DNA from: a virus | Length of the DNA: 26,385 nt | Direction: 5' to 3' (one strand) | IMG/VR virus record: IMGVR_UViG_3300032288_005327 | Coordinates: 1-26,385 of that record | In this document: positions 3,913 through 25,349 of the stretch, piece after piece | How the letters are laid out: each line of letters begins with the position of its first letter | How positions within the stretch are numbered: position 1 is the first letter of the stretch | Notes under the pieces: generated by a model | What the model was told of the DNA's origin: nothing | Database searches by the model: none | The model's input: the letters and a program-made list of their open reading frames with translations, nothing else | Program-made: the position numbers and the translations under genes

Positions 3913-4722
3913 TTATTTGCAGCTACCGTTCTTTTTCTTCTTCTTCATGGATTCATCATAGCCTTTCTTGGCCGTTTGAGAGATGGAGTAATATCCGTGG
4001 CAGGAATTGCAGCGCATCTGGTGCTTCACCGTACCAGCAGCCGAGTACACCGTTTTCGACTTCTTGACATCCTCCGATCCGCAATGGGAGCAAGTCCAAG
4101 TCTCATTCCCCAAAGCCACTCCGGCATGGGTCTTTGCCGCCACATGCAACCTCAATTTCTCGTAGACTTTCGCCAGTAACTCAACGTCTCTGCCGCAGTA
4201 CTTGCACATGTAGTCCAACGACCTTCCGCATTTTTGAAGAACGATCTTCTTCCAAAGGTCGAAATGCGTGTCGAGCTTATGACCGAAACCGAGGAAGCTG
4301 CCGATGTAATCGAGTTTGTTGGAGTTAAAGTAAAAGTGCTTTGAGGCCCAGGCCTTCGTGTCAATTGTCTTGTACTTGGGCAGGGGAGGGAGTCCGTGGT
4401 AGAGGCACCTCGTCCGTAACCATGGGAGATCAAACCTATCCCCATAGTGGGCGACAAGCTCGTCAGCTTCGTTCGCCACCAGAAGAAAACGCTCAAGCAT
4501 AGCCTTGTCATCCTGATCCTTATCCCATCTAAGAACCGATGCCTTCTTGTCTCCCTCCCACATGTACCCAATACAGATGATCTTTCTTTCATGGAGGATG
4601 TTGTCGTGACTTATGTTGTTATCCATCCCAGCCCTCCAGCAGAAGACCACGTTAGGAGAAGTCTCAATATCCCAAAACAATCTCCTGATCCCCGTCTTCT
4701 CAGGGGTATTGGTATTGATCAT
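3913..4722 (-). CDS. 3'-5' exonuclease-like protein with C-terminal zinc ribbon
   Basis: 269 residues. The N-terminal RNase H-like exonuclease fold (DnaQ/PolB type) shows ExoI FWDIETSP (D18, E20), ExoII HYGDRFDLPWL (D98) and ExoIII CKYCGRDVELL (D179). The C-terminal third has a zinc ribbon, C211xxC214 and C238xxC241, and a Lys-rich end. Proteins of this kind hydrolyse DNA or RNA from 3' ends with two metal ions; no polymerase domain is attached. First gene of the packaging operon, starting after the hairpin-rich spacer. The ATG at 4722 has no clear Shine-Dalgarno site. The zinc ribbon probably helps nucleic-acid binding (inference). The exact substrate is unknown. Confidence 0.85.
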   Translation of the reverse strand: MINTNTPEKTGIRRLFWDIETSPNVVFCWRAGMDNNISHDNILHERKIICIGYMWEGDKKASVLRWDKDQDDKAMLERFLLVANEADELVAHYGDRFDLPWLRTRCLYHGLPPLPKYKTIDTKAWASKHFYFNSNKLDYIGSFLGFGHKLDTHFDLWKKIVLQKCGRSLDYMCKYCGRDVELLAKVYEKLRLHVAAKTHAGVALGNETWTCSHCGSEDVKKSKTVYSAAGTVKHQMRCNSCHGYYSISQTAKKGYDESMKKKKKNGSCK

Positions 4723-8323: not shown

Positions 8324-8809
8324 ATGACCAAGGAGCAATTCCGCCAATCCTTAAAGGAACTCTTCACCAAGTTCCCCTATTACCTAGCCACCTACGTCTT
8401 CCTCGTAGGTATCATCTGGTTACTCTTCTTCCCATTCAAGCCCGTCAAGCTCGATCCGCCCACCTATATCACCCCAAACGCCCAAGGAGAAGCCCTCATC
8501 AAAGCCCATACCTCAAACGGCCAAGTCTTCAAGGTATCCTATACAGGAAGCATGAAGCCCTTACTCCAAGGAGGGGAATGGGTAGTAACAGCCGCCGCCT
8601 ACAACCAGATCCAACTCGGCCAAGTCCTAGTCTACAAAGCCCCCTACAACCAATCCCCCATCATCCATAGAGCCGTCCAAAAGGACAAAGACGGGTGGAT
8701 CATGTCTGGCGACTCCTCCCCAAGAAGCGAACCTTGGTTCAGGGTAACCCCAGAAACCTACATCGGAACAACCATCGCCATCTTCAGAGACCCCAAAAAC
8801 ACCCCCTAG
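8324..8809 (+). CDS. Membrane-anchored signal-peptidase-like (S24/S26) protein
   Basis: 161 residues. A basic N-terminus is followed by one transmembrane helix (residues 20-38, YYLATYVFLVGIIWLLFFPF). The rest resembles the serine peptidase fold of signal peptidase I and LexA: YTGSMKPLL (Ser76, with the S-x-M-x-P signature), GQVLVYKAP then IIHRAV (His115-Arg116), and MSGDSSPRS (G129-D130). Ser-His-Asp in this order fits the Sec11-like branch better than the Ser-Lys bacterial Lep branch. It would face the periplasm or cell exterior, and could process viral or host exported proteins (inference). Codon choice here is strikingly C-ended compared with its neighbours. Confidence 0.8.
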   Translation: MTKEQFRQSLKELFTKFPYYLATYVFLVGIIWLLFFPFKPVKLDPPTYITPNAQGEALIKAHTSNGQVFKVSYTGSMKPLLQGGEWVVTAAAYNQIQLGQVLVYKAPYNQSPIIHRAVQKDKDGWIMSGDSSPRSEPWFRVTPETYIGTTIAIFRDPKNTP

Positions 8810-12424: not shown

Positions 12425-13273
12425 ATGAAGATAACACTAGGTTCGGACCCTGAGCTTATGCTCATGGACAGAAACGCGGGCAAGATCGTCAATGCCCTTG
12501 ATGTCATCGGACGGGACAAGAACGATCCCGTGGAATTGGATTGCGGCGAGAAGTACTACGCCGACAACGCCCTGTTTGAGTTCTCGGTCAAGCCAGCCGA
12601 TACCACATTGGGCATCATATCCAACCTTCAGCGTGTCATCCAAGAGTCGGCCTTCCGGTTGCCTGATCACAAGATGGTGGCGCAATCGTCCCATGTCTTC
12701 GACAAGGAGGATCTGAAGAATCCCTCGTCTTGGCTGATCGGCTGCACGCCCAGCTTCAATGCGTGGACCGAGCAGGTCAACCAGCCAGGAAAGTTCGAGT
12801 CCGGTTTGCGTACCGGCTCCTTCCATATCCATATCGGCATGGGTACGCTCAAGAAATTGAGCGAAAAACTGTTAGCCGTGAGGATGCTCGACATCCACCT
12901 TGGCTGCGCGAGCGTTTTGTTCGACCAGGACCCCAGCGTGAAGGCTCGGCGTCAACTTTACGGCAAGGCTGGTGAGTTCAGGCCCACTCCCTACGGCATC
13001 GAGTATCGTGTGCTCGGCAACTGGGCGCTCGGCAACAAGGAGTTGACCACCTTCATCTTCGACTTCGTGGGCTGGATCCTGCTGGAGAGCAAGGATAACG
13101 CCCAGAAGATCGTCAAGGAGGTCAATCGTGAGGATGTGTTCCAAGCGATCAACGAATGCGATGCTTTGGCGGCTGTGCGCGTACTCAAGTCCGTATGTCT
13201 TCCCGACCGAATCATGGACACCATCTCGAAGAACTACAGCCATGACTTCAACGCTGCATGGGGTGTGAAATGA
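12425..13273 (+). CDS. COOH-NH2 ligase type 2 (phiEco32-like amidoligase)
   Basis: 282 residues, with the glutamine-synthetase-like ATP-dependent amide ligase fold. Signature elements in order: LGSDPELML (residues 5-13), VELDCGEKYYADNALFEF (36-53), GSFHIHIGMG (131-140), and GKAGEFRPTPYGIEYRVLGN (180-199). This matches the phage phiEco32-like COOH.NH2 ligase type 2 family, which is predicted to join a carboxylate to an amine using ATP; the product is not known. It opens the amidoligase cluster, with an AGGA site before the ATG, and its stop overlaps the next start as ATGA, so the two are coupled. Length is typical of a stand-alone domain. Confidence 0.9.
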   Translation: MKITLGSDPELMLMDRNAGKIVNALDVIGRDKNDPVELDCGEKYYADNALFEFSVKPADTTLGIISNLQRVIQESAFRLPDHKMVAQSSHVFDKEDLKNPSSWLIGCTPSFNAWTEQVNQPGKFESGLRTGSFHIHIGMGTLKKLSEKLLAVRMLDIHLGCASVLFDQDPSVKARRQLYGKAGEFRPTPYGIEYRVLGNWALGNKELTTFIFDFVGWILLESKDNAQKIVKEVNREDVFQAINECDALAAVRVLKSVCLPDRIMDTISKNYSHDFNAAWGVK

Positions 13274-13959
13274 AAATCATCAACAATCAGAACCGGTCCG
13301 TGCTGACCGAGGGCAGGAACTACGGACTCGGCTTCGCCTTCCTGAAGAAGATCAACGACGAGACCTTCGAGACCATTCAACCCATCTCTCCGTGCAAGGA
13401 CTACCTCAACGACGTAGTCTACTCTGAAGCCACGGGCAGACCGTTCGCAGCATGGGGTCTCAAGACTACCAAACAGGGAATCTTCGAGGGCGATCATGCC
13501 TACATGGCCCTTGCCGTGTGCAAGATGGGCAGATCGTTGTCCACCTATTCCGGCTATGACGAAGAACTGGAACTGATGGCCAACAACCGTGAGAACATGG
13601 AGAAGTTCATACACGGGATTGAAACCAAGCTTGGCATTGGAAAGACCAAACTGGTGGATGTGGATGATAACCTGAAACTTGCCATCATGGACAAGCAATG
13701 GGCCTCGGCAACCTACTTGATCTCCCTGTATGCCCTGATGTTGCGGGTAGCCCTGCAATACGAAGGCGGAGGGGTTATGACACATATGCGGGAGATCGAC
13801 TCGCCCGACCGCATGATGCTGAACGGAATCAAGGAGAAGCTTCTGATCTTATTTGAGCGCAAGGGCAACCTGCCAAAGCAGAAGCTGGAGAACATCGGAG
13901 GCGTGCACGATCACGGCATCGTAAGCGCAAACTTCAAGGACACCTACATTTATGAGTGA
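13270..13959 (+). CDS. Unrecognised protein coupled to amidoligase
   Basis: 229 residues from the ATG at 13270, overlapping the ligase stop as ATGA; an ATG at 13258 is less likely. Soluble, mixed alpha/beta. A notable stretch is SPCKDYLNDVVYSEATGRPF (residues 40-59), rich in polar residues with a Cys-Lys-Asp group. A helix-rich centre (ASATYLISLYALMLRVALQY) is mildly hydrophobic but not a membrane span. It is sandwiched between an amide ligase and a glutamine amidotransferase with overlaps on both sides, so it very probably works in the same pathway. No catalytic family assigned. Confidence 0.85.
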   Translation: MKIINNQNRSVLTEGRNYGLGFAFLKKINDETFETIQPISPCKDYLNDVVYSEATGRPFAAWGLKTTKQGIFEGDHAYMALAVCKMGRSLSTYSGYDEELELMANNRENMEKFIHGIETKLGIGKTKLVDVDDNLKLAIMDKQWASATYLISLYALMLRVALQYEGGGVMTHMREIDSPDRMMLNGIKEKLLILFERKGNLPKQKLENIGGVHDHGIVSANFKDTYIYE

Positions 13960-14689
13960 AAAGCCCATCATCAAGGCACCTATCCCAAAGATCAAGGTGT
14001 TCATCAGCAAAACGCAAACAAAAAATGATGCTTGGTGGTTTCCAAAGCCATTTGAAATCGTTAATGAAATCCATGACGCAAACCTGGTCATGTTCACAGG
14101 GGGTCCGGATGTTACGCCTAAATTGTATGGTCACTCCCCGCATCACAGTACCTGCAATGGCATTGAGCGAGATGAGATAGACAAGAAGGTGTATGATATT
14201 GCGACGTATTCTCAACTGCCAAAGATAGGCATCTGTCGTGGCGCCCAGTTCCTATGCGTGATGGCAGGAGGTGCTTTGGTTCAGGATCAAAGCAATGGAA
14301 TGGCAATTCATGCCGTGAAGACATTCACGAAGAAAAGCATAGCAGTTCGTTCAGATCATCATCAGGCTCAATATCCTTGGTGTCTTCCCGAAGGGACATG
14401 GGACTTGTTGAGCTGGACGGAAGGTATGCATAACAAACACATCGGATGGCATAATGGTATAGGAATAACCGAGTTGATTAACAATCTAGCTCACAGGTAC
14501 AACAGCCCAATCAAAGGACCAAATCTGCCCGAGATCGAGGATGTTTACTATCGTAACATCAATGCCTTAGCCATCCAATCCCACCCTGAGTGGTCGAATG
14601 AAAACGATTCAATGGATGCTTTGGCATTGGACTACTATCGCTCACTTGTCCTTCGCCTGATGTACGGATGGGACAAGGCGGCGATCTGA
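13952..14689 (+). CDS. Class I glutamine amidotransferase (peptidase C26-like)
   Basis: 245 residues. Clear motifs of the gamma-glutamyl hydrolase branch of class I amidotransferases: FTGGPDVTPKLYG (residues 48-60), GICRGAQFLCVMAGG (93-107, nucleophile Cys95), SDHHQ (134-138), and QSHPEW (209-214, His211 and Glu213). The triad Cys-His-Glu is complete. Such enzymes hydrolyse glutamine or gamma-glutamyl amides to release ammonia or free amines. Its start lies 8 bases inside the previous gene. In this setting it could supply nitrogen to, or trim gamma-glutamyl products of, the neighbouring ligases (inference). Confidence 0.9.
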   Translation: MSEKPIIKAPIPKIKVFISKTQTKNDAWWFPKPFEIVNEIHDANLVMFTGGPDVTPKLYGHSPHHSTCNGIERDEIDKKVYDIATYSQLPKIGICRGAQFLCVMAGGALVQDQSNGMAIHAVKTFTKKSIAVRSDHHQAQYPWCLPEGTWDLLSWTEGMHNKHIGWHNGIGITELINNLAHRYNSPIKGPNLPEIEDVYYRNINALAIQSHPEWSNENDSMDALALDYYRSLVLRLMYGWDKAAI

Positions 14690-14691
14690 AG

Positions 14692-14726
14692 ACTTTCCCC
14701 CTGTGGATGGGCGCAATCCATGGGGG
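14692..14726 (+). promoter_or_regulatory. Leader hairpin with recurring ACTTTCCCCC
   Basis: CCCCC/GGGGG (14697-14701 and 14722-14726) enclosing TGGAT/ATCCA with a 7-base loop. The C-run is the end of ACTTTCCCCC, also found at 9433 and 11754. A second hairpin, ACGGGA/TCCCGT (14744-14760), follows before the ATG at 14780. No T-run, so not a standard terminator. Confidence 0.4.
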
Positions 14727-14779
14727 TCAACCAACCATGCGTCACGGGAGTCAATCCCGTTAGAGAAAGGAACAAGCAC

Positions 14780-15220
14780 ATGTGCAAGATCATCAAGAAT
14801 GGCAGCGGATTGTACTACAAGACCGGCTGCGGTTTCACGGCGAACATCGACGAGGCTTCTCGCCTCGACGAGCTCGGGGTTGAGGACATCCTCAATTCCT
14901 GCGAGGACCTGGGCATCTCCAACCTCACGGTTGAGGATGAGCCTGTCTTTGCGCCGTCTGGTTCGTGGGCTGTCTGCTATGTCCGTGAGGGCGACCTCAA
15001 CGGTGATGGCAGCATCAAGCTGAACACGAACAACCCGAGCCGCCGTCGCTTCGCCACCCGTTGCGAGGCGATCATCCACGGCAGCCGATTCCATGTCCGC
15101 AAGGCCAAGGGATCGGGCGTCGCTGGATCCGCCGGTCACGTTGGCTTCTGGGTCATCCAGACCAACGATCCGGTGAATGCCGCGATCAATCCCGAGACCG
15201 GGCTGACCAACCCCGTCTGA
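14780..15220 (+). CDS. Hypothetical protein in amidoligase cluster
   Basis: 146 residues from the ATG at 14780, chosen because AGAAAGGA lies 8 bases upstream; an earlier in-frame ATG at 14720 has no such site and covers the leader hairpin. It opens MCKIIKNGSGLYYKTGCGFT, so a Cys follows Met, but the rest shows no amidotransferase motifs. A helical acidic centre (EASRLDELGVEDILNSCEDL) is followed by a beta-rich half (SWAVCYVREGDL, GFWVIQTNDPV). High G+C at third positions. It is followed by a strong terminator, so it ends the first transcript of the cluster. Family not recognised. Confidence 0.75.
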   Translation: MCKIIKNGSGLYYKTGCGFTANIDEASRLDELGVEDILNSCEDLGISNLTVEDEPVFAPSGSWAVCYVREGDLNGDGSIKLNTNNPSRRRFATRCEAIIHGSRFHVRKAKGSGVAGSAGHVGFWVIQTNDPVNAAINPETGLTNPV

Positions 15221-15237
15221 TTCAAGACAGGGCTATC

Positions 15238-15282
15238 ATGAGCAGGCTGGGTCCGACCCCCTCCTGCTCATTTTCTTTTTTA
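15238..15282 (+). terminator. Intrinsic terminator inside amidoligase cluster
   Basis: ATGAGCAGG/CCTGCTCAT (9 bp, 15238-15246 and 15263-15271) with an inner GGGT/ACCC, followed by TTTCTTTTTT. A strong rightward terminator 18 bases after the 14780 gene. The next gene therefore probably has its own promoter or relies on partial read-through or antitermination. Confidence 0.88.
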
Positions 15283-15307
15283 ACCACAACCTAAACAAGA
15301 CAGCATC

Positions 15308-17095
15308 ATGCCATCACCTTTAGATTCAGATCCAATCCCTCAAACTGAAACCTTTACGATTTCAGGAAAGATCGCGTACATTCCTCCCGATCCGGAAGCT
15401 TTTACCACTCCTACATTGGGCAACGCCAGCATCCTTGGGGCTAACCCAATGAAGACAAGGCGCAAGATATCCACGAAGGATCAGACCGATCCATCAACGC
15501 GTGTGTCTTTGTTCAAGTTTGTGTTCCCTATGTCTGCCGAGCCCGAGTGGTTCTGGTTCGAGCCTATAGGTTGGGTTCACGAGAGCGAGACACAAAAGTT
15601 CACTCGTATGTACGCCAAATGCGTACTTACAAATGCTTACATGTCCAGAGACCAGATGGTTAGGTTCTTCCATCCAGACCATGGAATGTGTTCTGCATCA
15701 ACCTCCGTGGTCATGGATAACAAGGACAAATATGTCCACGGAAGCCAAGGGTATTGGCTTAGACTAGAGGATACCATCGAAGTATTCCATTGGGACAATT
15801 GCTACGATAATAACGTTAAGAAGGTCTTTCTTAATCGCCACGCCTCAGATACTTCCTATTCAACGTGTGGTTTCGACGGTCAACTTTGGACAAGCGATTC
15901 CTTGATGAAGATCAGGAAGTCAACCAAGTACAAGTACGTTGCACGCAAGTATATAGACAACGAGAACTTTGGTAGTTGCAACGAGTGCGGAGGCAACTTC
16001 GAGATGGATCATTTGGACTTTGTCGAAGGTCCAGATGTTGAGCTTTGCGAAACGTGCAAGGTTCAATGGGAGATCAAGGACACGATCAAGCCGCACAATT
16101 ACAACAAGTATCCTGCCATCATAGCCAAGCCTACGTTGCGTTTCCCTACAACAAAAGGCCTGCATGGACCAGTAACAATTTCCACGGAACGAACCCTTCC
16201 ATGTCTTCCCGTGCGGCTATTCGGTGTCGAGGTCGAGACCGAGATGCACGCCCACGGAATGGTTAAAGCTGGGGTTCTTCGTCATAACGTGGCCCGCAAT
16301 CTGATGGATGTGCTTGGTGAGGACTTCATCTTGGCCAAGGAGGACGGCAGCTTGGTCATGAACGGCAAGTACTCGGACAATGACATCGGATCAAAGTATG
16401 CCGGCTTCGAGCTGGTCACAGCACCAGCCGATCTAGCGACCCATTACTCCCGCTGGCCATTGCTCAGTACGGCCAAGCATTACAACCTGCTCAGGTCTTG
16501 GGACACTCCAACCTGCGGCTTTCATGTCCATGTCTCACGCAACGGGATGTCTGCCCTTCAGATCGCCCGCATCGTTCTCTTCGTCAACCACCCCCACAAC
16601 AAGCTATTCATCCAGAAGGTAGCCGGTCGTGGCTCGGCCAAGTATTGCAGGTACTTCAACAAGGAACCAAAGGATGCCGTCGGCGTGCACTACAAGAACG
16701 ATGAGAATCGCAGACAAGCGGTCAACCTGACCAACGAGAAGACCATCGAGTTCCGCATCTTCCGTGGCACGGTCAACCCCAAGCATATCCTGCGGAACAT
16801 CGAGTTCTGCGATGCCATCTGCGACTTCTGCTACCCAGCCTCTCGTCCGCTTGGGGATGTCAACAACAAGATCAAGTTCTTATCCTTTGTGGAGATGAAC
16901 AAGAAACGTTGGCCGTTGCTAGCCGCTTGGTTGGCGATCCATGGCTTCATTTCAATCGACGTACCGGAACCTAAGTTCCGTGACAACATGTCCATCAAGA
17001 TGAACGACGTACCCGAGGCCGACATCTTGGTGGATAACTCTGGCAATACTTCAACGCCCGCCGTGGCGGGAGCAAGCTTTGAGGATAACTTCTGA
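15308..17095 (+). CDS. Zinc-ribbon protein with C-terminal amidoligase domain
   Basis: 595 residues. Residues 1-215 form an unrecognised region rich in aromatics (EWFWFEPIGW, 80-89). A zinc ribbon follows, CNEC (224-227) and CETC (247-250). The C-terminal half is an amidoligase (putative amidoligase enzyme, Amidoligase_2 type): FGVEVETE (305-312), KEDGSLVMNG (344-353), GFELVTAP (367-374), CGFHVHVSR (403-411), and NLTNEKTIEFRIFRGT (473-488). These are the metal/ATP-binding Glu and His positions of the glutamine-synthetase-like fold. The fused N-terminal part may bring a substrate (inference). Directly followed by the class II amidotransferase gene. Confidence 0.88.
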   Translation: MPSPLDSDPIPQTETFTISGKIAYIPPDPEAFTTPTLGNASILGANPMKTRRKISTKDQTDPSTRVSLFKFVFPMSAEPEWFWFEPIGWVHESETQKFTRMYAKCVLTNAYMSRDQMVRFFHPDHGMCSASTSVVMDNKDKYVHGSQGYWLRLEDTIEVFHWDNCYDNNVKKVFLNRHASDTSYSTCGFDGQLWTSDSLMKIRKSTKYKYVARKYIDNENFGSCNECGGNFEMDHLDFVEGPDVELCETCKVQWEIKDTIKPHNYNKYPAIIAKPTLRFPTTKGLHGPVTISTERTLPCLPVRLFGVEVETEMHAHGMVKAGVLRHNVARNLMDVLGEDFILAKEDGSLVMNGKYSDNDIGSKYAGFELVTAPADLATHYSRWPLLSTAKHYNLLRSWDTPTCGFHVHVSRNGMSALQIARIVLFVNHPHNKLFIQKVAGRGSAKYCRYFNKEPKDAVGVHYKNDENRRQAVNLTNEKTIEFRIFRGTVNPKHILRNIEFCDAICDFCYPASRPLGDVNNKIKFLSFVEMNKKRWPLLAAWLAIHGFISIDVPEPKFRDNMSIKMNDVPEADILVDNSGNTSTPAVAGASFEDNF

Positions 17096-17131
17096 TAGCA
17101 ACCGTAACATAACAAACAGGAAGACAACAAC

Positions 17132-18421
17132 ATGTGCATAATCGTCTGCAAACCCACCGGCGTCTCATTGGATAAGCAAGTTTGGAAGAACTGCTTCGAT
17201 AACAATGACGACGGCGCCGGTATCATGTACGTCAACGACAACAAAGTGGTTGTTGACAAAGGCCACTTCGATTTCGACAAGCTGCACGAAGCAATCGAGA
17301 AGCTGACCGACAAGGACATTGTGGTTCACTTCCGTGCTGCTTCCCCTGGCATGGTCATCAATGCCGAGAATACCCATCCGTTCTTCTGGGAGAATGGCGA
17401 GACGTTTAGCTCCGATGGCAAGGTGCCAAGATACCAATGGGCCATGTGCCACAACGGCAGGTTGAAGTGGGCCAATACTGACAAGAAGTCTGATACCAAT
17501 TGCTTCGCCGAGCAGTTCCTTAATCCTTACACGGATCGGGATCCGTACTTGTTTGATGCCAAGCTAGGCATGATGATGTTCGAGACATTCATTGCTGATA
17601 ATAACAAGATCGTTGTCATGCGACATGACACGGAGGAGAACAAGACCAAGCTCTACATAGCAAATGAGAGCAAGGGTCATTGGAAGAACAAGTGCTGGTT
17701 TTCCAACCACTCCTACGAGGACAAGCCCAAGGTTTCTCAGATGGATCTATACGGAGACTATGCTGTACACTATGGTACTGGGTACGGATATGGATCCTCA
17801 AAACACAAAAGCCACTATTCCAACAATCGCCTTGCGAACAAGGACGACTTTGCGTGGCGGAAAAGGTGGAAAGAAGGGGAGGCGCATCCGCCGATAAGTC
17901 ATTCGGACATCGACAAGTTCGGATGGTTCTGGTCCTATCAGGATCAAGTTTGGTACAATGTGACCACCGGCTTTGCCGTGTCGGAACTTACTTATCGCCT
18001 CAAGCCCCAGTATGCATCTAAGGAGTGCGTAGCGTGTTTCGACGATGAGACTAAGATTCCCGATCAACCTGCCAAGCTGGACCTAGAGGGTGGCGTCAAG
18101 GACAGCGTGAAGCTGGACCAGTTCGAGGACGAGGGTGGAGTTATCGTCGAGATATCCACCATCAGTCATTTGGAGAAGCACGAGATAGCTATGCTGTGCA
18201 AGAAGTTCTCAAGCTGGGCCAAGGCATTGAAGCTTCCGTTGGGAGACTTGAGAAGCATGAATGCCAAAGAGAAAATCGAAGCGTTGCGTGAAATTGTTCT
18301 TGAGAACTATGGCAATGAGTTCCCTTACTTGGAGACCTTGGATATTGAGGCCTTGGACTTGTGGATTCTTACCAAGATCAAGGATTCCAGCCTCAAACTA
18401 ACAATCGTTTCGGAGGTGTAA
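17132..18421 (+). CDS. Class II glutamine amidotransferase-like protein
   Basis: 429 residues. It begins MCIIVCKPTG; removal of Met would expose Cys as the N-terminal nucleophile, as in class II (Ntn) amidotransferases. Supporting elements: DDGAGIMYVNDNKV (residues 27-40), IVVHFRAASPG (about 68-78) and MCHNGRL (about 107-113), which matches the conserved HNG strand. The amidotransferase domain fills about the first 200 residues; the rest is unrecognised, with a region like a small beta domain (FGWFWSYQDQVWYNVTTGF) and a helical tail. Such proteins hydrolyse glutamine to feed ammonia to a partner. AGGAAG lies before the ATG. Next to the amidoligase, a functional pair is likely. Confidence 0.88.
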   Translation: MCIIVCKPTGVSLDKQVWKNCFDNNDDGAGIMYVNDNKVVVDKGHFDFDKLHEAIEKLTDKDIVVHFRAASPGMVINAENTHPFFWENGETFSSDGKVPRYQWAMCHNGRLKWANTDKKSDTNCFAEQFLNPYTDRDPYLFDAKLGMMMFETFIADNNKIVVMRHDTEENKTKLYIANESKGHWKNKCWFSNHSYEDKPKVSQMDLYGDYAVHYGTGYGYGSSKHKSHYSNNRLANKDDFAWRKRWKEGEAHPPISHSDIDKFGWFWSYQDQVWYNVTTGFAVSELTYRLKPQYASKECVACFDDETKIPDQPAKLDLEGGVKDSVKLDQFEDEGGVIVEISTISHLEKHEIAMLCKKFSSWAKALKLPLGDLRSMNAKEKIEALREIVLENYGNEFPYLETLDIEALDLWILTKIKDSSLKLTIVSEV

Positions 18422-18427
18422 TCAACA

Positions 18428-18781
18428 ATGCAAAAGCATATTGTTCTAGGAGATCATCAGATAGTTCTGCCAAACGACGTAGTGGTAAGATCAAGCGTTT
18501 GTTTTGAATCAACATCAGATCTGGTTCAGGCTATCAAATCAGTGATTGAAAATTCAGAGTTATATGGAGGCCCTGATTTTAACAACAACAGTAGAAAATA
18601 TATTGTGTGTGCTCCCAATGGATATGGCATAGGGGATTACACGGTTGGAAGGGTAAAGCAAATGGTTGGTGGTTCAAATATGGTGGCTGCCATAATCAGA
18701 CTTACAAAGCCACAAGACTACTTCCCAGTAAGTAAGCCCAAGTCTTTGTCATCGTACGCCAGTCCTCTTCCATTGCCATGA
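18428..18781 (+). CDS. Small protein with LSSYxxxLPLP C-terminal tail (1)
   Basis: 117 residues, from a more A/T-rich patch than its neighbours. A beta-rich fold is likely (HIVLGDHQIVLPNDVVV at the start; KYIVCAPNGYG in the middle). It ends KPKSLSSYASPLPLP, and the same spaced ending, LSSYxxxLPLP, closes the next protein although the two share no other clear similarity. It starts 6 bases after the class II amidotransferase and its stop overlaps the next start as ATGA. Function unknown; the shared tail in an amidoligase cluster suggests a recognition or modification signal. Confidence 0.8.
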   Translation: MQKHIVLGDHQIVLPNDVVVRSSVCFESTSDLVQAIKSVIENSELYGGPDFNNNSRKYIVCAPNGYGIGDYTVGRVKQMVGGSNMVAAIIRLTKPQDYFPVSKPKSLSSYASPLPLP

Positions 18782-19269
18782 AACTTGGAAAAGTACATTA
18801 CTTAGGGTCATGCCTTGATAACCAAGGAAAGATGGTAGATTTCTACGCCAGGAAGATTGGAGTGTTAAAATACTACATGCTTCCTACGTCCATCATAGTG
18901 GTGAATGGGCTTAGGAAACCTGTGCTACATCTCGTTGATATACCATCTAACCTTTGCAACTACCATTGGAACAACGATGTTTGTTTTCATGAGTTTGTCC
19001 GAACAAACATCTGGGCATTTTCAAACAGCATTCAAATGTTATCTACGAAACAACATTTGATGTCATGTTGCGAGGCGAATAACATGGAGCGCGTAAGTCT
19101 CGGACTTCATGAGATCAAGTACAACTTAAAGTTCTGGATTCTTTGCGATTCAGAAGGCAATGTTTACGACAGCTGGCGAATGAATATTTTAAGGTCAAAG
19201 TTGCACTCGACAAAGCCGCGAAAAGCTTCAACCCTATCTTCTTATTCCGAATGCCTTCCCCTTCCATGA
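18778..19269 (+). CDS. Small protein with LSSYxxxLPLP C-terminal tail (2)
   Basis: 163 residues, Cys- and aromatic-rich, soluble. It ends KPRKASTLSSYSECLPLP; the last 11 residues match the tail of the preceding protein in LSSYxxxLPLP with identical spacing, but with different codons (CTA TCT TCT TAT against TTG TCA TCG TAC), so the likeness is at protein level. The body is unrecognised; a beta segment (IIVVNGLRKPVLHLVDIP) is followed by a helical Cys-rich region with CC. Start and stop overlap its neighbours as ATGA. Confidence 0.8.
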   Translation: MKLGKVHYLGSCLDNQGKMVDFYARKIGVLKYYMLPTSIIVVNGLRKPVLHLVDIPSNLCNYHWNNDVCFHEFVRTNIWAFSNSIQMLSTKQHLMSCCEANNMERVSLGLHEIKYNLKFWILCDSEGNVYDSWRMNILRSKLHSTKPRKASTLSSYSECLPLP

Positions 19270-19655
19270 CAAAAACAAAAGATCAATGGGTTCTTATCCA
19301 AGCCGAAGAGACCGTCAATGGTCTGGATAGCGGAGTGGGTAGATTCATCAAGAAGAACAACGTCAATCTGAAGCCCAACAAAGGCGTGCCGATGCATCCA
19401 CGGGAAGCCTTCTTCAACGTATTGACGGATGACTCACGACCGGACTACCCATTTGAAGAGTCCTACATGAAGGCTATTGGCAAGGCGTTGGAGGAAGATG
19501 GATTGATGGCCCGTTGTGCGGTGGCTGAAGACAATGAGAAGTTGTTTCGTGCCACGGTAAGGACTATTGTAAATGCCGAGACCATCCGCTTTTTGGAAGC
19601 CCATAGAGAACCCGCGTTGAAGTTAATCCTTAAACTGCGCGGAGAGATAGAGTAA
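19266..19655 (+). CDS. Small hypothetical protein ending the amidoligase cluster
   Basis: 129 residues from the ATG at 19266, which overlaps the upstream stop as ATGA; an in-frame ATG at 19251 would add five residues. Soluble and charged, mostly helical. Centre: PREAFFNVLTDDSRPDYPFEESYMKAIGKALEEDGLM. It lacks the LPLP tail of the two preceding proteins. No motif recognised. The last gene of the run before a 220-base gene-free leader. Confidence 0.75.
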   Translation: MTKTKDQWVLIQAEETVNGLDSGVGRFIKKNNVNLKPNKGVPMHPREAFFNVLTDDSRPDYPFEESYMKAIGKALEEDGLMARCAVAEDNEKLFRATVRTIVNAETIRFLEAHREPALKLILKLRGEIE

Positions 19656-19874: not shown

Positions 19875-20519
19875 ATGAATACTCCCCTGAGTCAGATTGC
19901 TAACCTTCCTGATGGGTGCCCCCTGACGGAAATCAACGGGACGGTCGTTGCCGTCTATGAACGCCGAAACATTGCCGGTGGCAAGTCGGTGCAGAATGCC
20001 GAGATCTCCGATGGATCAACCAAGGTTCGCCTTACGGTCTGGGGTCATGAGGATATCTCGGTTTACAAGGATCGGGTGGTTGTCCTGACGGCTGGACCGA
20101 AGGGAGGTCTTACGGTCAAGGAGGATGAGTACAAGGGCAACAAGCGCAAGGTCATCTCTGCTTCAGCCACTTGCCAGTTCCAGTTCATTGAGGTGCACAA
20201 TGCAGCCAAGCCTGCCGGTGCTGCGCCTGCTGCTCCTGCCCAAGCCTCTCATCCTGTGATTGCTGCTCCCCAAGTGAACGGAGCCAAGGTTGGCATGGCG
20301 ATCAACAATGCGATTACCTTGTTGCAGAATGAGCCGTATGACATCAAGAAGGTTGCTCAGGTGGCCTCCGATATCATGCGTCTGTCCCATTGGCTGGAGG
20401 CTGGCAACTTGATGCCCAAGTCTTCTGGTGTGGCTTCAGAGCCGATCAAGCCAATCACTGTTGATCCTGCTTCCAAAGGGAGTGAGCCCGCTGGGGAAGC
20501 CGAAGACGTTCCCTATTGA
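19875..20519 (+). CDS. OB-fold single-stranded-DNA-binding-like protein
   Basis: 214 residues from the ATG at 19875; the longer frame from 19818 is less likely. Residues about 15-110 read as an OB fold: EINGTVVAVYERRN, SVQNAEISDGSTKVRLTVWG, DRVVVLTAGPKGGLTV. A Pro/Ala-rich linker follows (AAPAAPAQA), then a helical segment (around 142-175). The last residues, GEAEDVPY, resemble the acidic SSB tail that ends DIPF. It likely coats single-stranded DNA and recruits partners through its tail. First gene of the replication/recombination block. The Shine-Dalgarno site is weak. Confidence 0.78.
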   Translation: MNTPLSQIANLPDGCPLTEINGTVVAVYERRNIAGGKSVQNAEISDGSTKVRLTVWGHEDISVYKDRVVVLTAGPKGGLTVKEDEYKGNKRKVISASATCQFQFIEVHNAAKPAGAAPAAPAQASHPVIAAPQVNGAKVGMAINNAITLLQNEPYDIKKVAQVASDIMRLSHWLEAGNLMPKSSGVASEPIKPITVDPASKGSEPAGEAEDVPY

Positions 20520-20522
20520 GCC

Positions 20523-20798
20523 ATGCCTGGTCCAAAGCCAGGAAGTTCCCATAGCCCAACATCCCACTTTACGGTTGTTAGCAATGTGCCCATCCCTGCT
20601 CCAATCAGGCGTGGGCGTGCTAAAAATCGGGGATGCAACATGGATCTCCTCAACCGCATGAGGGTTGGGGAGTCCATTTGGGAAGTTCCATTCAAGAAAG
20701 CCCATTCCATACGGAACTCGGGTGTTAGGAAAGGACTTAAGATCCAGATGATCCAGCTTCCTTCCGGTAATTATGTTATTTGTAAACTAAGCGAATGA
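20523..20798 (+). CDS. Small basic hypothetical protein
   Basis: 91 residues. Pro/Ser/Arg-rich, probably disordered start (residues 1-38), then a compact basic domain: MDLLNRMRVGESIWEVPFKK, SIRNSGVRKGLKIQM and GNYVICKLSE. This second part looks like short conserved phage DNA-region proteins with the layout GES-x-VP ... S-RN-(A/G)-x-(K/R)-G-x-K; it could be read from its own ATG at 20640. The stop overlaps the next start as ATGA. It sits between an SSB-like protein and a nuclease, so a DNA-related role is likely but not shown. Confidence 0.7.
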   Translation: MPGPKPGSSHSPTSHFTVVSNVPIPAPIRRGRAKNRGCNMDLLNRMRVGESIWEVPFKKAHSIRNSGVRKGLKIQMIQLPSGNYVICKLSE

Positions 20799-21646
20799 TC
20801 AATTTTGAGACAGCCGCCCATTGGTACGGAGCCGATGGTACGCCCCAGCATGACGCCGATCTCCGCACCGCACGGAAGAACAATCTCTATCCGTCCGTCA
20901 CCACGATAGACAAGGATGTCTTCCGTAATCAGGGGCTGGAGAAGTACAAGATGAACCAGCTTGTCATGGCGGCCTGCGCCCACCAGCGCCAGCCCCATGA
21001 GACGGATGAGGGGTATGCCAACCGCATCTATCAGGTATCCTTGGAGCATTCCAAGAGCGCAGCGGAGTTTGGTTCAGCCTTGCACGATGCCATCGAGCAC
21101 TATCCCCAGATGCCATTGGATGCCAATCTGGTCCCTTGGCTGGATAAGTTTGGGGTTTGGTATTCCGCTAATGTCAGCCATCCCCTGCATCAGGAGAAAG
21201 TCCTTCTGGACCATGATCTTGCGGTAGCGGGAAGGTGTGACTTCATTGGTATAGGCAAGGGCAAGTTTGAGGGTCAAACCATCATTCCTGACTGGAAAAC
21301 TCAAGATGTAAAGAAAGACGATAAGGGCAGGAAGAAGCCTAACTTCTACCCAAGCTGGGCCCGCCAGCTATCTTTCTATGCCGTTTCCTTCGCAAAAGAG
21401 GCCGGAACTTTCCCAATGGGTATTCCGACCTGCATTTCGGTAGTAATTGATTCCAATGAGCCGGAAGAGCCCTTTGTAAAGGTCTGGGAGAAGGAGGAGA
21501 TCCAGGATGCCTACACCACCTTTGTGGTGGGAGCTTGGCTCTACTTCTCCGGAGCTGGCAATAGAAAACCTTATTGGCCCCATAAGAAGAACCAATTACA
21601 GGTAGGGCTATCCGTACCCATGCCTTTCGATGAAGACGCCAACTGA
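20795..21646 (+). CDS. PD-(D/E)XK nuclease (RecB/Cas4-like exonuclease)
   Basis: 283 residues. Motifs in order: YPSVTTIDK (32-40), FGSALHDAIEHY (92-103, His97), AGRCDFIG (145-152, Asp149), IIPDWKTQ (163-170, Asp166 and Lys168), and QLSFYA (191-196, the QxxxY motif). This is the PD-(D/E)XK arrangement of RecB-type exonucleases used by phages to resect DNA ends. No iron-sulfur Cys cluster is seen, unlike Cas4. It partners naturally with the SSB-like protein upstream and the HNH and RusA-like genes downstream. The start overlaps the upstream stop as ATGA. Confidence 0.87.
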   Translation: MINFETAAHWYGADGTPQHDADLRTARKNNLYPSVTTIDKDVFRNQGLEKYKMNQLVMAACAHQRQPHETDEGYANRIYQVSLEHSKSAAEFGSALHDAIEHYPQMPLDANLVPWLDKFGVWYSANVSHPLHQEKVLLDHDLAVAGRCDFIGIGKGKFEGQTIIPDWKTQDVKKDDKGRKKPNFYPSWARQLSFYAVSFAKEAGTFPMGIPTCISVVIDSNEPEEPFVKVWEKEEIQDAYTTFVVGAWLYFSGAGNRKPYWPHKKNQLQVGLSVPMPFDEDAN

Positions 21647-21773
21647 GGTACAGGCGGATATGATCCGCGACTTAGAAGCCAAGGTCAGCCTATTGCTGGA
21701 TGACCTTTTTTACGCCCGTGCTGAAATCGCCAAGTTGCGTATTATGCTTATGGAAAAGGAAAAGCAGCCGTGA
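21630..21773 (+). CDS. 47-residue coiled-coil protein
   Basis: Starts inside the last 17 bases of the nuclease gene and overlaps the next gene as GTGA. Almost all helix with a heptad pattern (MIRDLEAKVSLLLDDLFYAR, then EIAKLRIMLMEKEK). No cysteines. Probably an oligomerising small protein of unknown role. Support comes from tight overlaps on both sides. Confidence 0.65.
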   Translation: MKTPTEVQADMIRDLEAKVSLLLDDLFYARAEIAKLRIMLMEKEKQP

Positions 21774-21946
21774 GCATATCGTGGCAATGGGCAAAGGCTA
21801 ATCCAGATGCTGCGGCTCGACAAATACGCGAGCTACAGAGGGAGAACGCCGAGTTGCAAAAAATAATAGCTACCATGAAAGAAAGACTCATTTGGCTAGA
21901 ACTAGAGCAATGGTACGTTGTGGATAAAAAGGAGACAAAACCATGA
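21770..21946 (+). CDS. 58-residue coiled-coil protein, GTG start
   Basis: The GTG start at 21770 has AAAAGGA 9 bases upstream and overlaps the previous stop as GTGA. MSISWQWAKANPDAAARQIR is followed by heptads (ELQRENAELQKIIATMKERL), then an amphipathic end. Its 3' end carries the AAGGAG site for the following gene, so the pair is coupled. Function unknown. Confidence 0.65.
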   Translation: MSISWQWAKANPDAAARQIRELQRENAELQKIIATMKERLIWLELEQWYVVDKKETKP

Positions 21947-22152
21947 CCTACAAAGACATGACATTCTGTTCGGGAGATGGGTGCGTGAAGTTTAACAAAT
22001 GCTTCCGTGCCCTTACGCCTGATGTTGAAGCCAGAGCCGCCAAGATAGGTCTGCCAATATCCCAATTTAGTAATCCCAAGGAAGTGGACTGCTACGAAGC
22101 CCCTAAATCCAATGACCTGCGCCGACAAAGCGATCAAGCTAGTGCTGCATGA
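21943..22152 (+). CDS. Small Cys-containing protein (MTYKDMTFCS type)
   Basis: 69 residues. Opens MTYKDMTFCSGDGCVKFNKC with Cys9, Cys14 and Cys20, plus a later Cys50 in VDCYE, enough for one zinc site. A short protein with this opening is common in phage genomes near replication genes. Ribosome binding site AAGGAG is 8 bases upstream. The last 41 bases overlap the next gene in another frame, so its final 13 residues may be less conserved. Confidence 0.8.
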   Translation: MTYKDMTFCSGDGCVKFNKCFRALTPDVEARAAKIGLPISQFSNPKEVDCYEAPKSNDLRRQSDQASAA

Positions 22153-22549
22153 TCGGAACGCCACCTATGGCGATCCTGCGGACGATTACCGGAAAGTAGC
22201 CAAGATCTGGAGCGGACTACTGGCGCCCATCCTAAAGCGGGATATTACGCCGCAGGAAGCCATCCTGATGATGGTAGGGCTCAAGCTATCCCGAGAAGTC
22301 CACCTCCCCAAGGAAGATAACGTCATTGATGCCCACGGTTATCTCCTGTGCTATGAATGGGCCAAGTCGGGCCAACGTCCGGAACCAGCTGGAGTTCCAA
22401 CACCCCCAGTATATCCTACCATTGAAGATGGATTTGGAAATATCTGGACCAAATGCGGAAAGGCGGATTGCGGACTTCATGTGGTAAGACCCGGCAAGAC
22501 CCAGTGCGACGTTTGCGATAATCAACCCTGCAATGAAAGCTACCATTGA
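22112..22549 (+). CDS. DUF6378-like protein with C-terminal zinc ribbon
   Basis: 145 residues. The N-terminal domain follows the pattern RNATYGDPADDYRKVAKIW, ITPQEAILMMVGLKLSRE and KEDNVIDAHGYLLCYEW, which I recognise as a phage family annotated DUF6378, reminiscent of MazG-like all-helical nucleotide hydrolases; activity is unproven. The C-terminal 45 residues add a zinc ribbon (TKCGKADC, then CDVCDNQPC). The start lies 41 bases inside the previous gene; no better in-frame start follows before the conserved block. Possible role in nucleotide pools. Confidence 0.8.
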   Translation: MTCADKAIKLVLHDRNATYGDPADDYRKVAKIWSGLLAPILKRDITPQEAILMMVGLKLSREVHLPKEDNVIDAHGYLLCYEWAKSGQRPEPAGVPTPPVYPTIEDGFGNIWTKCGKADCGLHVVRPGKTQCDVCDNQPCNESYH

Positions 22550-22742
22550 CTTTTCCCTTCCTGAAGAAACTTACGAACACCTTCAGGCAATCCATGCTCC
22601 CGAAGCATGGAAGACCCTTAATGATCTTGATTACAAGCTGCGAAATATCGTGAAACACGGGCATAGATATGAGTCCGTGGAGCAACTAGCCAATGAGTTA
22701 CGCAATGAAATCAACGAGACATTATCCCTAGTAGACGTATGA
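22533..22742 (+). CDS. Small phage protein (FSLPEE ... WKTLNDLDYKLRN)
   Basis: 69 residues, acidic-to-neutral. Opens MKATIDFSLPEETYEHLQAI, then WKTLNDLDYKLRNIVKHGH and a helical end. This layout (beta strand FxLPEE, then a helix with W-x-L-x-D-L-D-x-x-LR) is a frequent short phage protein of unknown function. The start overlaps the preceding gene by 17 bases; the stop overlaps the next start as ATGA. Confidence 0.8.
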   Translation: MKATIDFSLPEETYEHLQAIHAPEAWKTLNDLDYKLRNIVKHGHRYESVEQLANELRNEINETLSLVDV

Positions 22743-23146
22743 ACCGATTCAACCTAAGCTCAAATCTTGCAGCATGTAACACCTATCGCAGGTTTCTGCG
22801 GACACCAACCATCATTGCCGTGATTTTGGTTATGGTGTCTTGGATTGTCATGTCGGGATATACCTTCGTGTATCTTTATGGCATGAATCACCCATTGATT
22901 GATCTATTGGCAGTTATCTTTTTATCTGTAATTTGTTATCCCGTAATCCTTTACTTTGTCTTCAGCGAAGTCCATTCGGCCATGATCAAGCGAAGGCTAT
23001 GGATATGGGGCCGGAACAAGTTCAATTCATGGAATGAGTTCTCGGATTGGATCAATCGAACCCACCATTTGGCCTTGGACTACATAGCCGGATTGCCCGA
23101 TGATTCATGGTATCCCGACATGAAGCGTGGAGGAATGGAAAAATGA
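22739..23146 (+). CDS. Two-span membrane protein
   Basis: 135 residues. A short N-terminal region is followed by transmembrane helix 1 (about 23-49), a short loop (MNHP), helix 2 (about 53-78), then a basic, aromatic cytoplasmic-type tail (RRLWIWGRNKFNSWNEFSDW). Both ends are likely cytoplasmic by the positive-inside rule. Coupled on both sides by ATGA overlaps. Holin or superinfection-exclusion roles are possible but the endolysin is 10 kb away; unassigned. Confidence 0.75.
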   Translation: MNRFNLSSNLAACNTYRRFLRTPTIIAVILVMVSWIVMSGYTFVYLYGMNHPLIDLLAVIFLSVICYPVILYFVFSEVHSAMIKRRLWIWGRNKFNSWNEFSDWINRTHHLALDYIAGLPDDSWYPDMKRGGMEK

Positions 23147-23433
23147 CAGGAGAAATCTGGGACTATCCAACAAGAATCAGAGTCACCTCAGAGTCAGACG
23201 CCAACGATTCCTATCTCGTTGACCTTACTGACTTCCCTGTAAACGGCATCTTCAACGGCAGCTGCCAATGCCAGCACTTTGTTTGCGTGCTAAGGCCAAA
23301 GCTAAAGACCCCAGGAAATACCTTTCTGCACCGCTGCAAGCACCTAAGATGGGCCAGGGATCATGCCCTAGATTTTATTCTACCACATCTTAAAGCTGCC
23401 GATCCCAATATTCCAGAAGACCAACAACCATGA
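23143..23433 (+). CDS. SWIM-like zinc-finger protein
   Basis: 96 residues from the ATG at 23143 (ATGA overlap). Zinc ligands are spaced as in a SWIM finger: SCQCQHF, then 21-22 residues later RCKHL, i.e. CxC ... CxH. SWIM domains bind DNA or proteins and occur with recombination factors. A beta-rich N-terminal part (TRIRVTSESDANDSYLVDL) precedes it. Placed between membrane and HTH-like genes in the replication block. Confidence 0.75.
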   Translation: MTGEIWDYPTRIRVTSESDANDSYLVDLTDFPVNGIFNGSCQCQHFVCVLRPKLKTPGNTFLHRCKHLRWARDHALDFILPHLKAADPNIPEDQQP

Positions 23434-23873
23434 CATCAAGAGAACTAAAACGAAAGAACCTCTGCATCAGCAAACTGGCAAGAGAACATGGCAAACGTCC
23501 CGTTTCTGTGTTTAATCGCATCTACCGAGGATGGTCATTGGAGGATGCCATCAAAACCCCCTTTCTTCCCATGTATCGCTCTGGGTTTGAGCGTACTTGG
23601 AAAAGCAAAGAAGATGTCCAGTTAGAACTGGATGAGATGCCATTGGATCAACTTCCTCCGCGCATTTTACGCTTAAGGTTGACGAACAAGAGTCCCACCT
23701 TAAAGTTTGGCAGATGGCTTCGTCGCCAACATCCCGAAGAATTTAACAAGTATTACTATGACACTTTTGCGCCGAAAGAACATGTTGAAGTCATCAAAAA
23801 GTTTAACGCGAGCCACACCGCTAAAGCGAGGAAACAAGTTAAGGCCGGTGTCAAAGAAGAGGTCGAAGCTTAA
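23430..23873 (+). CDS. HTH-like DNA-binding protein
   Basis: 147 residues, basic. Residues 10-41 read LCISKLAREHGKRPVSVF then NRIYRGWSLEDAIKTP, the pattern of a short helix-turn-helix found in phage DNA-binding and HNH-associated proteins (A-x-x-x-G-x-x-x-x-x-V-x-x-R-x-x-x-G-W-x-x-E-x-A). The rest is Arg/Lys-rich and helical. Its last 92 bases overlap the HNH gene in another frame. Probably binds DNA; target unknown. Confidence 0.7.
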   Translation: MTSRELKRKNLCISKLAREHGKRPVSVFNRIYRGWSLEDAIKTPFLPMYRSGFERTWKSKEDVQLELDEMPLDQLPPRILRLRLTNKSPTLKFGRWLRRQHPEEFNKYYYDTFAPKEHVEVIKKFNASHTAKARKQVKAGVKEEVEA

Positions 23874-24210
23874 CGTAGAGTACAGCCGACTCAGGAAAGA
23901 CTTCCTTGAAGCCCATCCCTATTGCCAAGTAACCATCCAGAACATGGGGGTTACTGAGGAAGAGGTAATCAGAGGAGGCGGCAGCACTGTTATTCGGGGA
24001 GATCTCGCTTACTTTCCGCGTTCCGTGGACGTTCATCACATGAAACGTCGTGGCAAGTACTTCCTTGACACTTCCAGTTGGTTAGCCGTATCTCGTCAGG
24101 CTCACAATTGGATCCACTCAAACCCGAAAGAAGCTACCGAGAAGGGTTGGTTGATCCCGCGATCCCAAGAAAACTTGATTACCAATGCCAGCTGCGAGGA
24201 TAACCAATGA
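23782..24210 (+). CDS. HNH-type endonuclease
   Basis: 142 residues from the ATG at 23782. Very basic start (LTRATPLKRGNKLRPVSKKR), then YSRLRKDFLEAHPYCQV, a long loop, VDVHHMKRRGKYFLDTSSWL (His85-His86) and AHNWIHSNP (His108, His112), the HNH beta-beta-alpha metal site order. The usual CxxC pair is reduced to a single Cys48. It probably makes cuts during packaging or recombination. The start overlaps the previous gene by 92 bases; the stop overlaps the 24207 gene as ATGA. Confidence 0.8.
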   Translation: MLKSSKSLTRATPLKRGNKLRPVSKKRSKLNVEYSRLRKDFLEAHPYCQVTIQNMGVTEEEVIRGGGSTVIRGDLAYFPRSVDVHHMKRRGKYFLDTSSWLAVSRQAHNWIHSNPKEATEKGWLIPRSQENLITNASCEDNQ

Positions 24211-24640
24211 CGAACTCCAATCCATCCTTAAACGAAAAGGATACGGCATCCACTCCGAAGTGGGGAAAAAGGGCATTGCGTCTGAAATTAGTGGTGCCGG
24301 GCCGAGTGGCAACGTGGAATCAAGTCGTGGATATGAATCCCTTCGTCAGGAAGCAGTTGCGCTTAACTACTCAGGCAAATGTACTGTCCGCATTAAGTTC
24401 TTTAGAAAGCGACTTGCCGACTACTCACGAGCAAATTGTGAAAAGTATCTCATCGACAGCGCAGTCTATGGTGGCATTATCCGCGACGATTCGGAAAAAG
24501 AAATTCGGCTCATCGACGAAGGGCAAGTGAAGGTTGATACCGAGGCCGAAGAACGGGTGGAAATAAACTTTGAGTACGAAGAGGTGGACCTTGATAATCT
24601 CTGGGTTCCACGAACAAGACTTGGCAACATAGGTCAATAA
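24185..24640 (+). CDS. RusA-like resolvase, C-terminal fold in this frame
   Basis: 151 residues. Its second half carries what looks like the RusA Holliday-junction resolvase core: CTVRIKFFRKRLADYSRANC, EKYLIDSAVYGGIIRDD (acidic metal site DD), then EERVEINFEYEEV. The first part, MPAARITNDELQSILKRKG, reads as coding, but residues about 30-60 are low in character, and the usual first strand and helix of the fold are instead seen in the overlapping frame at 24207. Either two proteins are made or a -1 frame change joins them. RusA-type enzymes cleave four-way junctions before packaging. Confidence 0.7.
   Translation: MPAARITNDELQSILKRKGYGIHSEVGKKGIASEISGAGPSGNVESSRGYESLRQEAVALNYSGKCTVRIKFFRKRLADYSRANCEKYLIDSAVYGGIIRDDSEKEIRLIDEGQVKVDTEAEERVEINFEYEEVDLDNLWVPRTRLGNIGQ
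24207..24530 (+). CDS. RusA-like N-terminal fold in an overlapping frame
   Basis: 107 residues, wholly nested in the 24185-24640 gene in another frame, starting as ATGA with the HNH stop. ALRLKLVVPGRVATWNQVVD then NPFVRKQLRLTTQANVLSAL looks like the first beta strand, loop and helix of the RusA fold. The C-terminal half (Ser/Thr/Lys-rich) is what would be expected from reading the resolvase core out of frame. Proteins of this look recur in phages in my memory, so the arrangement is unlikely to be a one-off sequencing error, but I cannot verify that here. Confidence 0.6.
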   Translation: MTNSNPSLNEKDTASTPKWGKRALRLKLVVPGRVATWNQVVDMNPFVRKQLRLTTQANVLSALSSLESDLPTTHEQIVKSISSTAQSMVALSATIRKKKFGSSTKGK

Positions 24641-24642
24641 TT

Positions 24643-24885
24643 ATGTCTAATCCTAAAGGAATGAACGCTTTGCGGATGCGTGTCGTAAAGCTTGATCCAG
24701 GTTATGGCGCAGGGGAAGGTCAACCCTATGCCATCCAAGTATCCCAAGACGGCTTGGTCTGGTTCACTATTGGTCGCTTTGACAATGAGCTATACGCCAA
24801 GGAGTATGCCCAGAAACTTGCTGGAATCGCTGACGCAAACATTTCTGTTCGGGCAACCCATATCCTATGGTCAACCCGAGTCTAG
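24643..24885 (+). CDS. Small hypothetical protein
   Basis: 80 residues starting 2 bases after the RusA-like stop. Beta-rich: MRVVKLDPGYGAGEGQPYAI, QVSQDGLVWFTIGRF, then a helix (ELYAKEYAQKLAG) and a final strand. Overlaps the next gene by 19 bases. Family not recognised. Confidence 0.7.
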   Translation: MSNPKGMNALRMRVVKLDPGYGAGEGQPYAIQVSQDGLVWFTIGRFDNELYAKEYAQKLAGIADANISVRATHILWSTRV

Positions 24886-25349
24886 ACTATCCTCTGATAC
24901 CCCGTCCTCCCAAGTACTTTGAAGACTTTAATGAGACTAGGTTTGATCCATTAAGGCATCAAAAATGGTTTCGTAAACTAGTCCGCCATTGGTACATGGC
25001 CAGAGGTGCGGAATTGGCTTACAAGGATATGGTGGCTAATGGATGGTCGCTGAACCTAGCCGCCAAGACTTACAAGATAGATAAGAAAAGAATCAGGCAT
25101 TATGGCCGGTTCATAAGCGGATTCCATTTAGCTAAAAGGGATCTTAAATATCTTACCTATCAGAAAGTTCTGGATGAGGTTTATGAGACCTATTGCAGGA
25201 ACAGGGGAGTTGTAAACTTTCACATGATCGCAAAGCCCTTGTGCAAGCTTTACGGAATCAGCAAGAGCACTTTTTACGAGTTTTGGGAGTTTGACCCAAA
25301 CTTTTTACCAACCGTCCTTAAGACAGACGACATGGCGCAAGGTACTTAA
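24867..25349 (+). CDS. Hypothetical protein with helix-turn-helix-like segments
   Basis: 160 residues, basic and aromatic. Two segments look like helix-turn-helix units: SLNLAAKTYKIDKKRIRHYG (about 68-87) and MIAKPLCKLYGISKSTFYEF (about 121-140). An Arg/Lys/Trp-rich N-terminal half precedes them. It could be a regulator that reads DNA near the strand switch at 25.4 kb, being nearly the last rightward gene; this is inference. No family recognised. Confidence 0.7.
   Translation: MVNPSLDYPLIPRPPKYFEDFNETRFDPLRHQKWFRKLVRHWYMARGAELAYKDMVANGWSLNLAAKTYKIDKKRIRHYGRFISGFHLAKRDLKYLTYQKVLDEVYETYCRNRGVVNFHMIAKPLCKLYGISKSTFYEFWEFDPNFLPTVLKTDDMAQGT

Follow-up and report, generated by a model that had tools for sequence, protein, structure and literature searches.

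Two adjacent phage genes encode proteins that are dissimilar along most of their length and end in closely matching eleven-residue tails, LSSYASPLPLP and LSSYSECLPLP, and tails of the same kind recur on five proteins of a related phage. As far as sequence comparison can tell, the tail is a short motif that is conserved, differs in sequence from phage to phage but always ends Pro-Leu-Pro (PLP), and is borne by fast-evolving accessory proteins. We consider that it probably serves as a short C-terminal address tag, for docking or targeting, with one common partner in each phage. Short terminal tags are known as a kind; the new variation on them is a lineage-specific PLP tail that several unrelated proteins of a phage have in common, next to an amidoligase cluster, and we recognised no paper describing this tail in the mainly non-subscription literature searched.

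A ligase and glutaminase cluster ending in two tail genes

The window, by which we mean the whole analysed stretch of 26,385 bases from virus record IMGVR_UViG_3300032288_005327, carries at 12425–19655, on the + strand, a run of genes for ligases and glutaminases that ends in the two tail genes, T1 and T2, and a third small gene. The run opens with a phiEco32-like COOH-NH2 ligase (12425–13273; PF14395, Pfam E = 1.3e-13, and PHROG), followed by a conserved cluster protein with no assigned function (13270–13959, the 13258 protein of the searches below; 41% identical in contig G006 and also present in 97-kb phages), a class-I glutamine amidotransferase (GATase; Peptidase_C26 in Pfam, 13952–14689), a small protein of the cluster (14720–15220) with counterparts in G006 and in phage G017, an amidoligase with an N-terminal extension and zinc-ribbon-like cysteines (Amidoligase_2, 15308–17095; PF12224, Pfam E = 2.2e-9) and a class-II GATase with an N-terminal Met-Cys (17132–18421; phrog_25883 and alignment), whose G017 homologue matches GATase_4 (E = 3e-7). 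The two ligases and two glutaminases that the original prediction had placed upstream of the tail genes are all present. T1 (117 aa, 18428–18781) starts just 3′ of the class-II glutaminase gene, behind GGAGG; T2 (163 aa, 18778–19269) is ATGA-coupled to T1, as is the next gene, which has no tail (19266–19655), to T2. The tails occupy 11 codons each, at 18746–18778 in T1 and 19234–19266 in T2, and an exonuclease gene lies at 20795.

GC content is 0.41 in T1 and T2 versus 0.51 for the window, and 0.49–0.54 in the five G017 tail genes (R1–R5) versus 0.56 in their surroundings, a base composition commonly seen in accessory genes. The tail genes have weak codon usage, and in both T1 and T2 one antisense frame slightly outscores the coding frame. 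AlphaFold2 run without an alignment gave poor models of T1 and T2 (pLDDT 39 and 38). Elsewhere in the window, the terminase large subunit (404–3322, − strand) has an apparent intein-like insertion at about residues 105–445 (CLHPDTP...FTVTHN), such that most relatives align to it as two pieces flanking the insertion, while L123 aligns throughout. A 161-aa protein at 8324–8809 (+ strand) looks by eye like a signal peptidase I (GSMKPLLQGGEW) and had no Pfam match.

Conservation of the tail between T1 and T2

Eight of the 11 terminal residues, LSSY and LPLP, are identical between T1 and T2, and the coordinates and sequences of both proteins are as originally described. Among 200,000 shuffles keeping the tail composition, 35 reached eight identities. 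The codons for the eight shared residues match at six sites in the first position, at all eight in the second and at two in the third, where codon usage predicts 2.6/8. Third positions are thus random, indicating that the tail did not arise by recent DNA copying, a conclusion already drawn in the original prediction from its differing codons; it is conserved as protein and not as DNA. The full-length alignment of the two proteins scored Z = 5.8, falling to 0.02 on removal of the last 11 residues, which bears out the expectation that the rest of the proteins is without similarity and indicates that T1 and T2 are not recognisable paralogues. BLASTP on this single pair gave E = 5e-5 over 112 residues, a value driven by the tail.

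Recurrence of the tail in a related phage

G017 (67,787 bases) has a terminase 64% identical to that of the window and carries the ligase cluster in much the same gene order, with homologues of window genes 19875–25349 downstream. The slot of T1 and T2 is filled there by four consecutive ORFs directly after the class-II glutaminase, whose products end SPIASLPVPLP, SPIASLPSPLP, SSTASIPAPLP and SEIASIPVPLP, while a fifth tail protein, directly after the class-I glutaminase, ends SKIASIPCPLP, giving the pattern SxIAS[IL]PxPLP. The P-L-P end is invariant in all seven tails (two in the window, five in G017), and six of the seven have a proline at position −5. No other sense-strand ORF of at least 40 aa in the whole 67.8-kb G017 ends P[LIVMF]P; one antisense G017 ORF ending IAPLP and two antisense window ORFs ending PVP and PFP were dropped. 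Across the ten pairs formed by the five G017 proteins, Z ranged from 3.4 to 7.5 at full length and from −1.1 to 3.0 after removal of the last 12 residues. The no-tail values were slightly raised for R2–R3 (3.0) and R2–R5 (2.6), and remote kinship of these pairs is possible from their sequences. A possible C-terminal extension common to GAT2 of the window and of G017 scored Z = 1.9.

Since such tails recur in the window phage and in G017, they are a repeated feature of the family, similar among proteins of one phage and divergent from one phage to the next. Both phages that show the complete region have the tail genes adjoining amidoligase and glutaminase genes, the link between T2 and G017 being one of position and tail and not of sequence homology. 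Neither absence of the tail from close homologues nor full-length paralogy was found, T1 and T2 themselves being without detectable homologues.

Contig G006, with a terminase 68% identical to that of the window, ends inside the amidoligase; the single protein that follows its class-I glutaminase ends ELRLP and resembles the tail weakly. A kinship with T2 suspected by eye for the G006 protein Q1 (ORF 2028–2651 of L129) found no support (Z = 0.4 at full length, 0.7 without the tail). In L129 (746–1943, − strand) the counterpart of the small protein encoded at window 14720 is duplicated in tandem (no-tail Z = 47.9).

Searches for relatives of the tail proteins and of the phage

T1 and T2 had no match in Pfam, PHROG or PADLOC, and a tblastn search of 50,697 phage records with an E cut-off of 10 returned only matches that we took as chance, two to T2 (E = 6) and a single one to T1 (E = 7). 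An exact-peptide scan of IMG/VR found nothing for T2 and a single match for T1 (L002), rejected as it sits in a terminase-like ORF. A further IMG/VR scan for SSYxxxLPLP followed by a stop, with TCN serine codons, returned 32 stretches; no relatives of the window enzymes are encoded there, and the ORFs look short or seem to run antisense. Sequence searches of 23 records, G017 included, did not recover T2, and a search of genome contigs with two family proteins gave no relative.

The terminase search for relatives yielded 11 loci with the window sequence alone and 29, G017 among them, with an alignment. Terminase segments of L118, L119, L120, L122 and L124 were 100% identical to that of the window, their DNA matches covering only its left part. 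Two other terminase relatives, G006 and G017, carry the ligase cluster.

Tails at other amidoligase loci

GATase-II was also present in 58 of 80 amidoligase contigs among the matches listed. With three loci from named phage records these gave 61 amidoligase-GATase-II loci, of which three were unparsed and two lacked an ORF beyond the GATase. No PLP tail was seen downstream of the GATase in the 56 readable loci, among the matches listed, where ORFs were picked by a simple longest-ORF rule that can miss true genes. PLP tails were likewise absent from the 80 loci found via the amidoligase (80 of 391, among the matches listed) and from six loci found via cluster protein 13258. Eight annotated phage regions, seven with a COOH-NH2 ligase and one from phage Marvin, contained no PLP-ending sense ORFs and one antisense one. 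With no tail at 56 other loci or in the eight annotated regions, the tail does not generally accompany the amidoligase module.

A related cluster was seen in L136–L139 (contigs up to 97.8 kb), which carry the 13258 protein, a class-I GATase-like gene, a COOH-NH2 ligase, a protein starting MCGLLGFSGHKG with the look of a class-II GATase, an amidoligase-like gene and a second GATase-II.

Shared C-termini in control pairs

We compared C-termini over 238,461 same-strand ORF pairs within 8 kb, drawn from 187 sequences (four duplicates dropped, some locus overlap remaining). At least seven of 11 terminal residues were shared by 29 pairs, comprising T1/T2, ten pairs of G017 proteins and 18 others. 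Twelve of these 18 had a no-tail Z of 10 or more, that is, they are paralogues or overlapping copies. The six pairs without such high values came from L088 (three, AAIRKRGET-type), L090 (one, Z = 4.0), L105 (one, acidic) and L027 (one, serine-rich).

A C-terminal module of the form EREACAKVCE...AAIRARGE is common to small proteins of amidoligase-bearing contigs (L088 177–1542, L090 21–1490, L078, L086, L106, L107 and L111). The three L088 proteins with the AAIRARGE-type module have hardly anything else in common (no-tail Z between 0.0 and 2.5), and the one module protein tested had no match in the phage collection. In phage UFV-P2 (L179), annotated proteins at 4060–4458 and 17814–18032 both end KKxLDKYLKV; their DNA is nearly identical, indicating a recent duplication.

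Discussion

Shared tails, conservation at the protein level, clustering by the enzyme genes and the lack of similarity elsewhere in the proteins form the basis for reading the tail as an address tag, which draws on the two phages with the complete region. In each phage, several small, rapidly evolving, otherwise unrelated accessory proteins would carry the same flexible Ser/Pro-rich C-terminus, whose Pro-Leu-Pro-COOH end would let one common partner bind all of them. This partner, presumably made in the same gene cluster, and the tail may drift together, such that proteins of one phage would have matching tails, and those of different phages only the PLP end in common. The original prediction had named a tag, a docking signal or a ligation substrate and had looked to xLPLP-type endings in related phages tied to amidoligases. 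The tag or docking part gained support from the five G017 proteins that repeat the tail in altered but recognisable form, with its PLP end; the specific ligase link gained none beyond adjacency, as no such tail turned up at the 56 amidoligase loci, among the matches listed, or in the eight annotated regions.

Among alternatives, a fast-evolving paralogous family, whose C-terminus would be the slowest part and whose tail would be inherited and not recruited, is plausible though doubtful. The genes are neighbours, of similar size and ATGA-coupled, and R2–R3 and R2–R5 retain some no-tail signal, but T1–T2 has a no-tail Z of 0.0 and most R pairs fall below 2; even in paralogues the tail would have to be under strong selection, so common descent would not remove the tag reading. 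The tail genes stand directly after the amidoligase-GATase-II pair in both phages, with one after the class-I GATase in G017, and from proximity alone we hypothesise that the amidoligase-glutaminase pair might be the partner of the tail or that the tail might be chemically modified. The tail could then be a substrate, the class-II glutaminase supplying ammonia and the amidoligase amidating the C-terminal proline or ligating an amine to it, chemistry of carboxylate and amine that suits a free C-terminus. We regard this as improbable, given that the enzyme pair occurs in 58 of 80 contigs (among the matches listed), yet none of the readable loci has a tail, nor do the annotated phage regions have PLP-ending sense ORFs. 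Equally unlikely is the fuller proposal of a multi-substrate tagging system, in which the pair would recognise a phage-specific PLP tail on a varying set of accessory proteins, would amidate or conjugate the C-termini of these proteins and would co-evolve with the tail.

Hypervariable small proteins with a common short terminal motif and an accessory base composition would also fit a packaging signal that brings proteins into the capsid for injection, comparable to the T4 capsid-targeting sequence. The genes lie by an early or DNA-metabolism region, with the exonuclease at 20795, and not by head genes, and the tail is C-terminal and not N-terminal, which makes packaging a rather unlikely explanation. 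Conservation might instead act on the RNA, with a pyrimidine-rich segment ahead of ATGA aiding translation restart of the next gene. This would accord with the next ORF's start codon lying in all seven tails (six as CC-ATGA) and with a pyrimidine content of 67–79% over the last 33 nt ahead of the stop in the six ATGA cases. Both phages have many ATGA junctions, however, and the tail occurs only at those after tail genes, such that coupling does not require it; third positions of T1 and T2 are not conserved and R5 ends in TAA, and we give the RNA reading very little credence. Chance might be invoked for a short, low-complexity peptide, but the 35 hits in 200,000 composition-preserving shuffles and the independent five-fold recurrence in G017 leave it next to no probability.

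The shared tail is a handle that gives candidate substrates or a docking partner. It also allows rapidly evolving accessory proteins of phages to be traced where ordinary homology searches fail.

Comparison with known systems

Amidoligase clusters of phiEco32-like and LUZ24-like phages, like that of the window, have a COOH-NH2 ligase, an Amidoligase_2 and a class-II GATase in one run. Those regions include an ATP-grasp gene and have no PLP-ending sense ORFs, whereas the window cluster has tail genes; no Pfam match to ATP-grasp or gamma-glutamyl cyclotransferase was obtained in the 10 proteins scanned from the window, itself a fragment. The T4 capsid-targeting sequence is N-terminal, is cleaved and occurs on variable small internal proteins near head assembly. 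T4 internal proteins are like the tail proteins in being variable small phage proteins with a short terminal motif in common, but targeting in T4 is N-terminal and near head genes, while the window tail is C-terminal and beside ligases, glutaminases and an exonuclease. In the Pup/PafA system a C-terminal tail is the ligation handle for a glutamine-synthetase-type ligase, a role that the window tail would share if it were a substrate; Pup ends Gly-Gly-Gln/Glu, whereas the window and G017 tails end Pro-Leu-Pro. Simple paralogues show similarity along the whole protein, which T1 and T2 do not (no-tail Z = 0.0). Encapsulin cargo-loading peptides are short C-terminal peptides that direct unrelated proteins to one partner, and the window tails are like them in being short C-terminal peptides on unrelated proteins, though no encapsulin was identified here. 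A short tail common to unrelated proteins of one phage, as expected of a docking peptide, is found both in the window and in G017.
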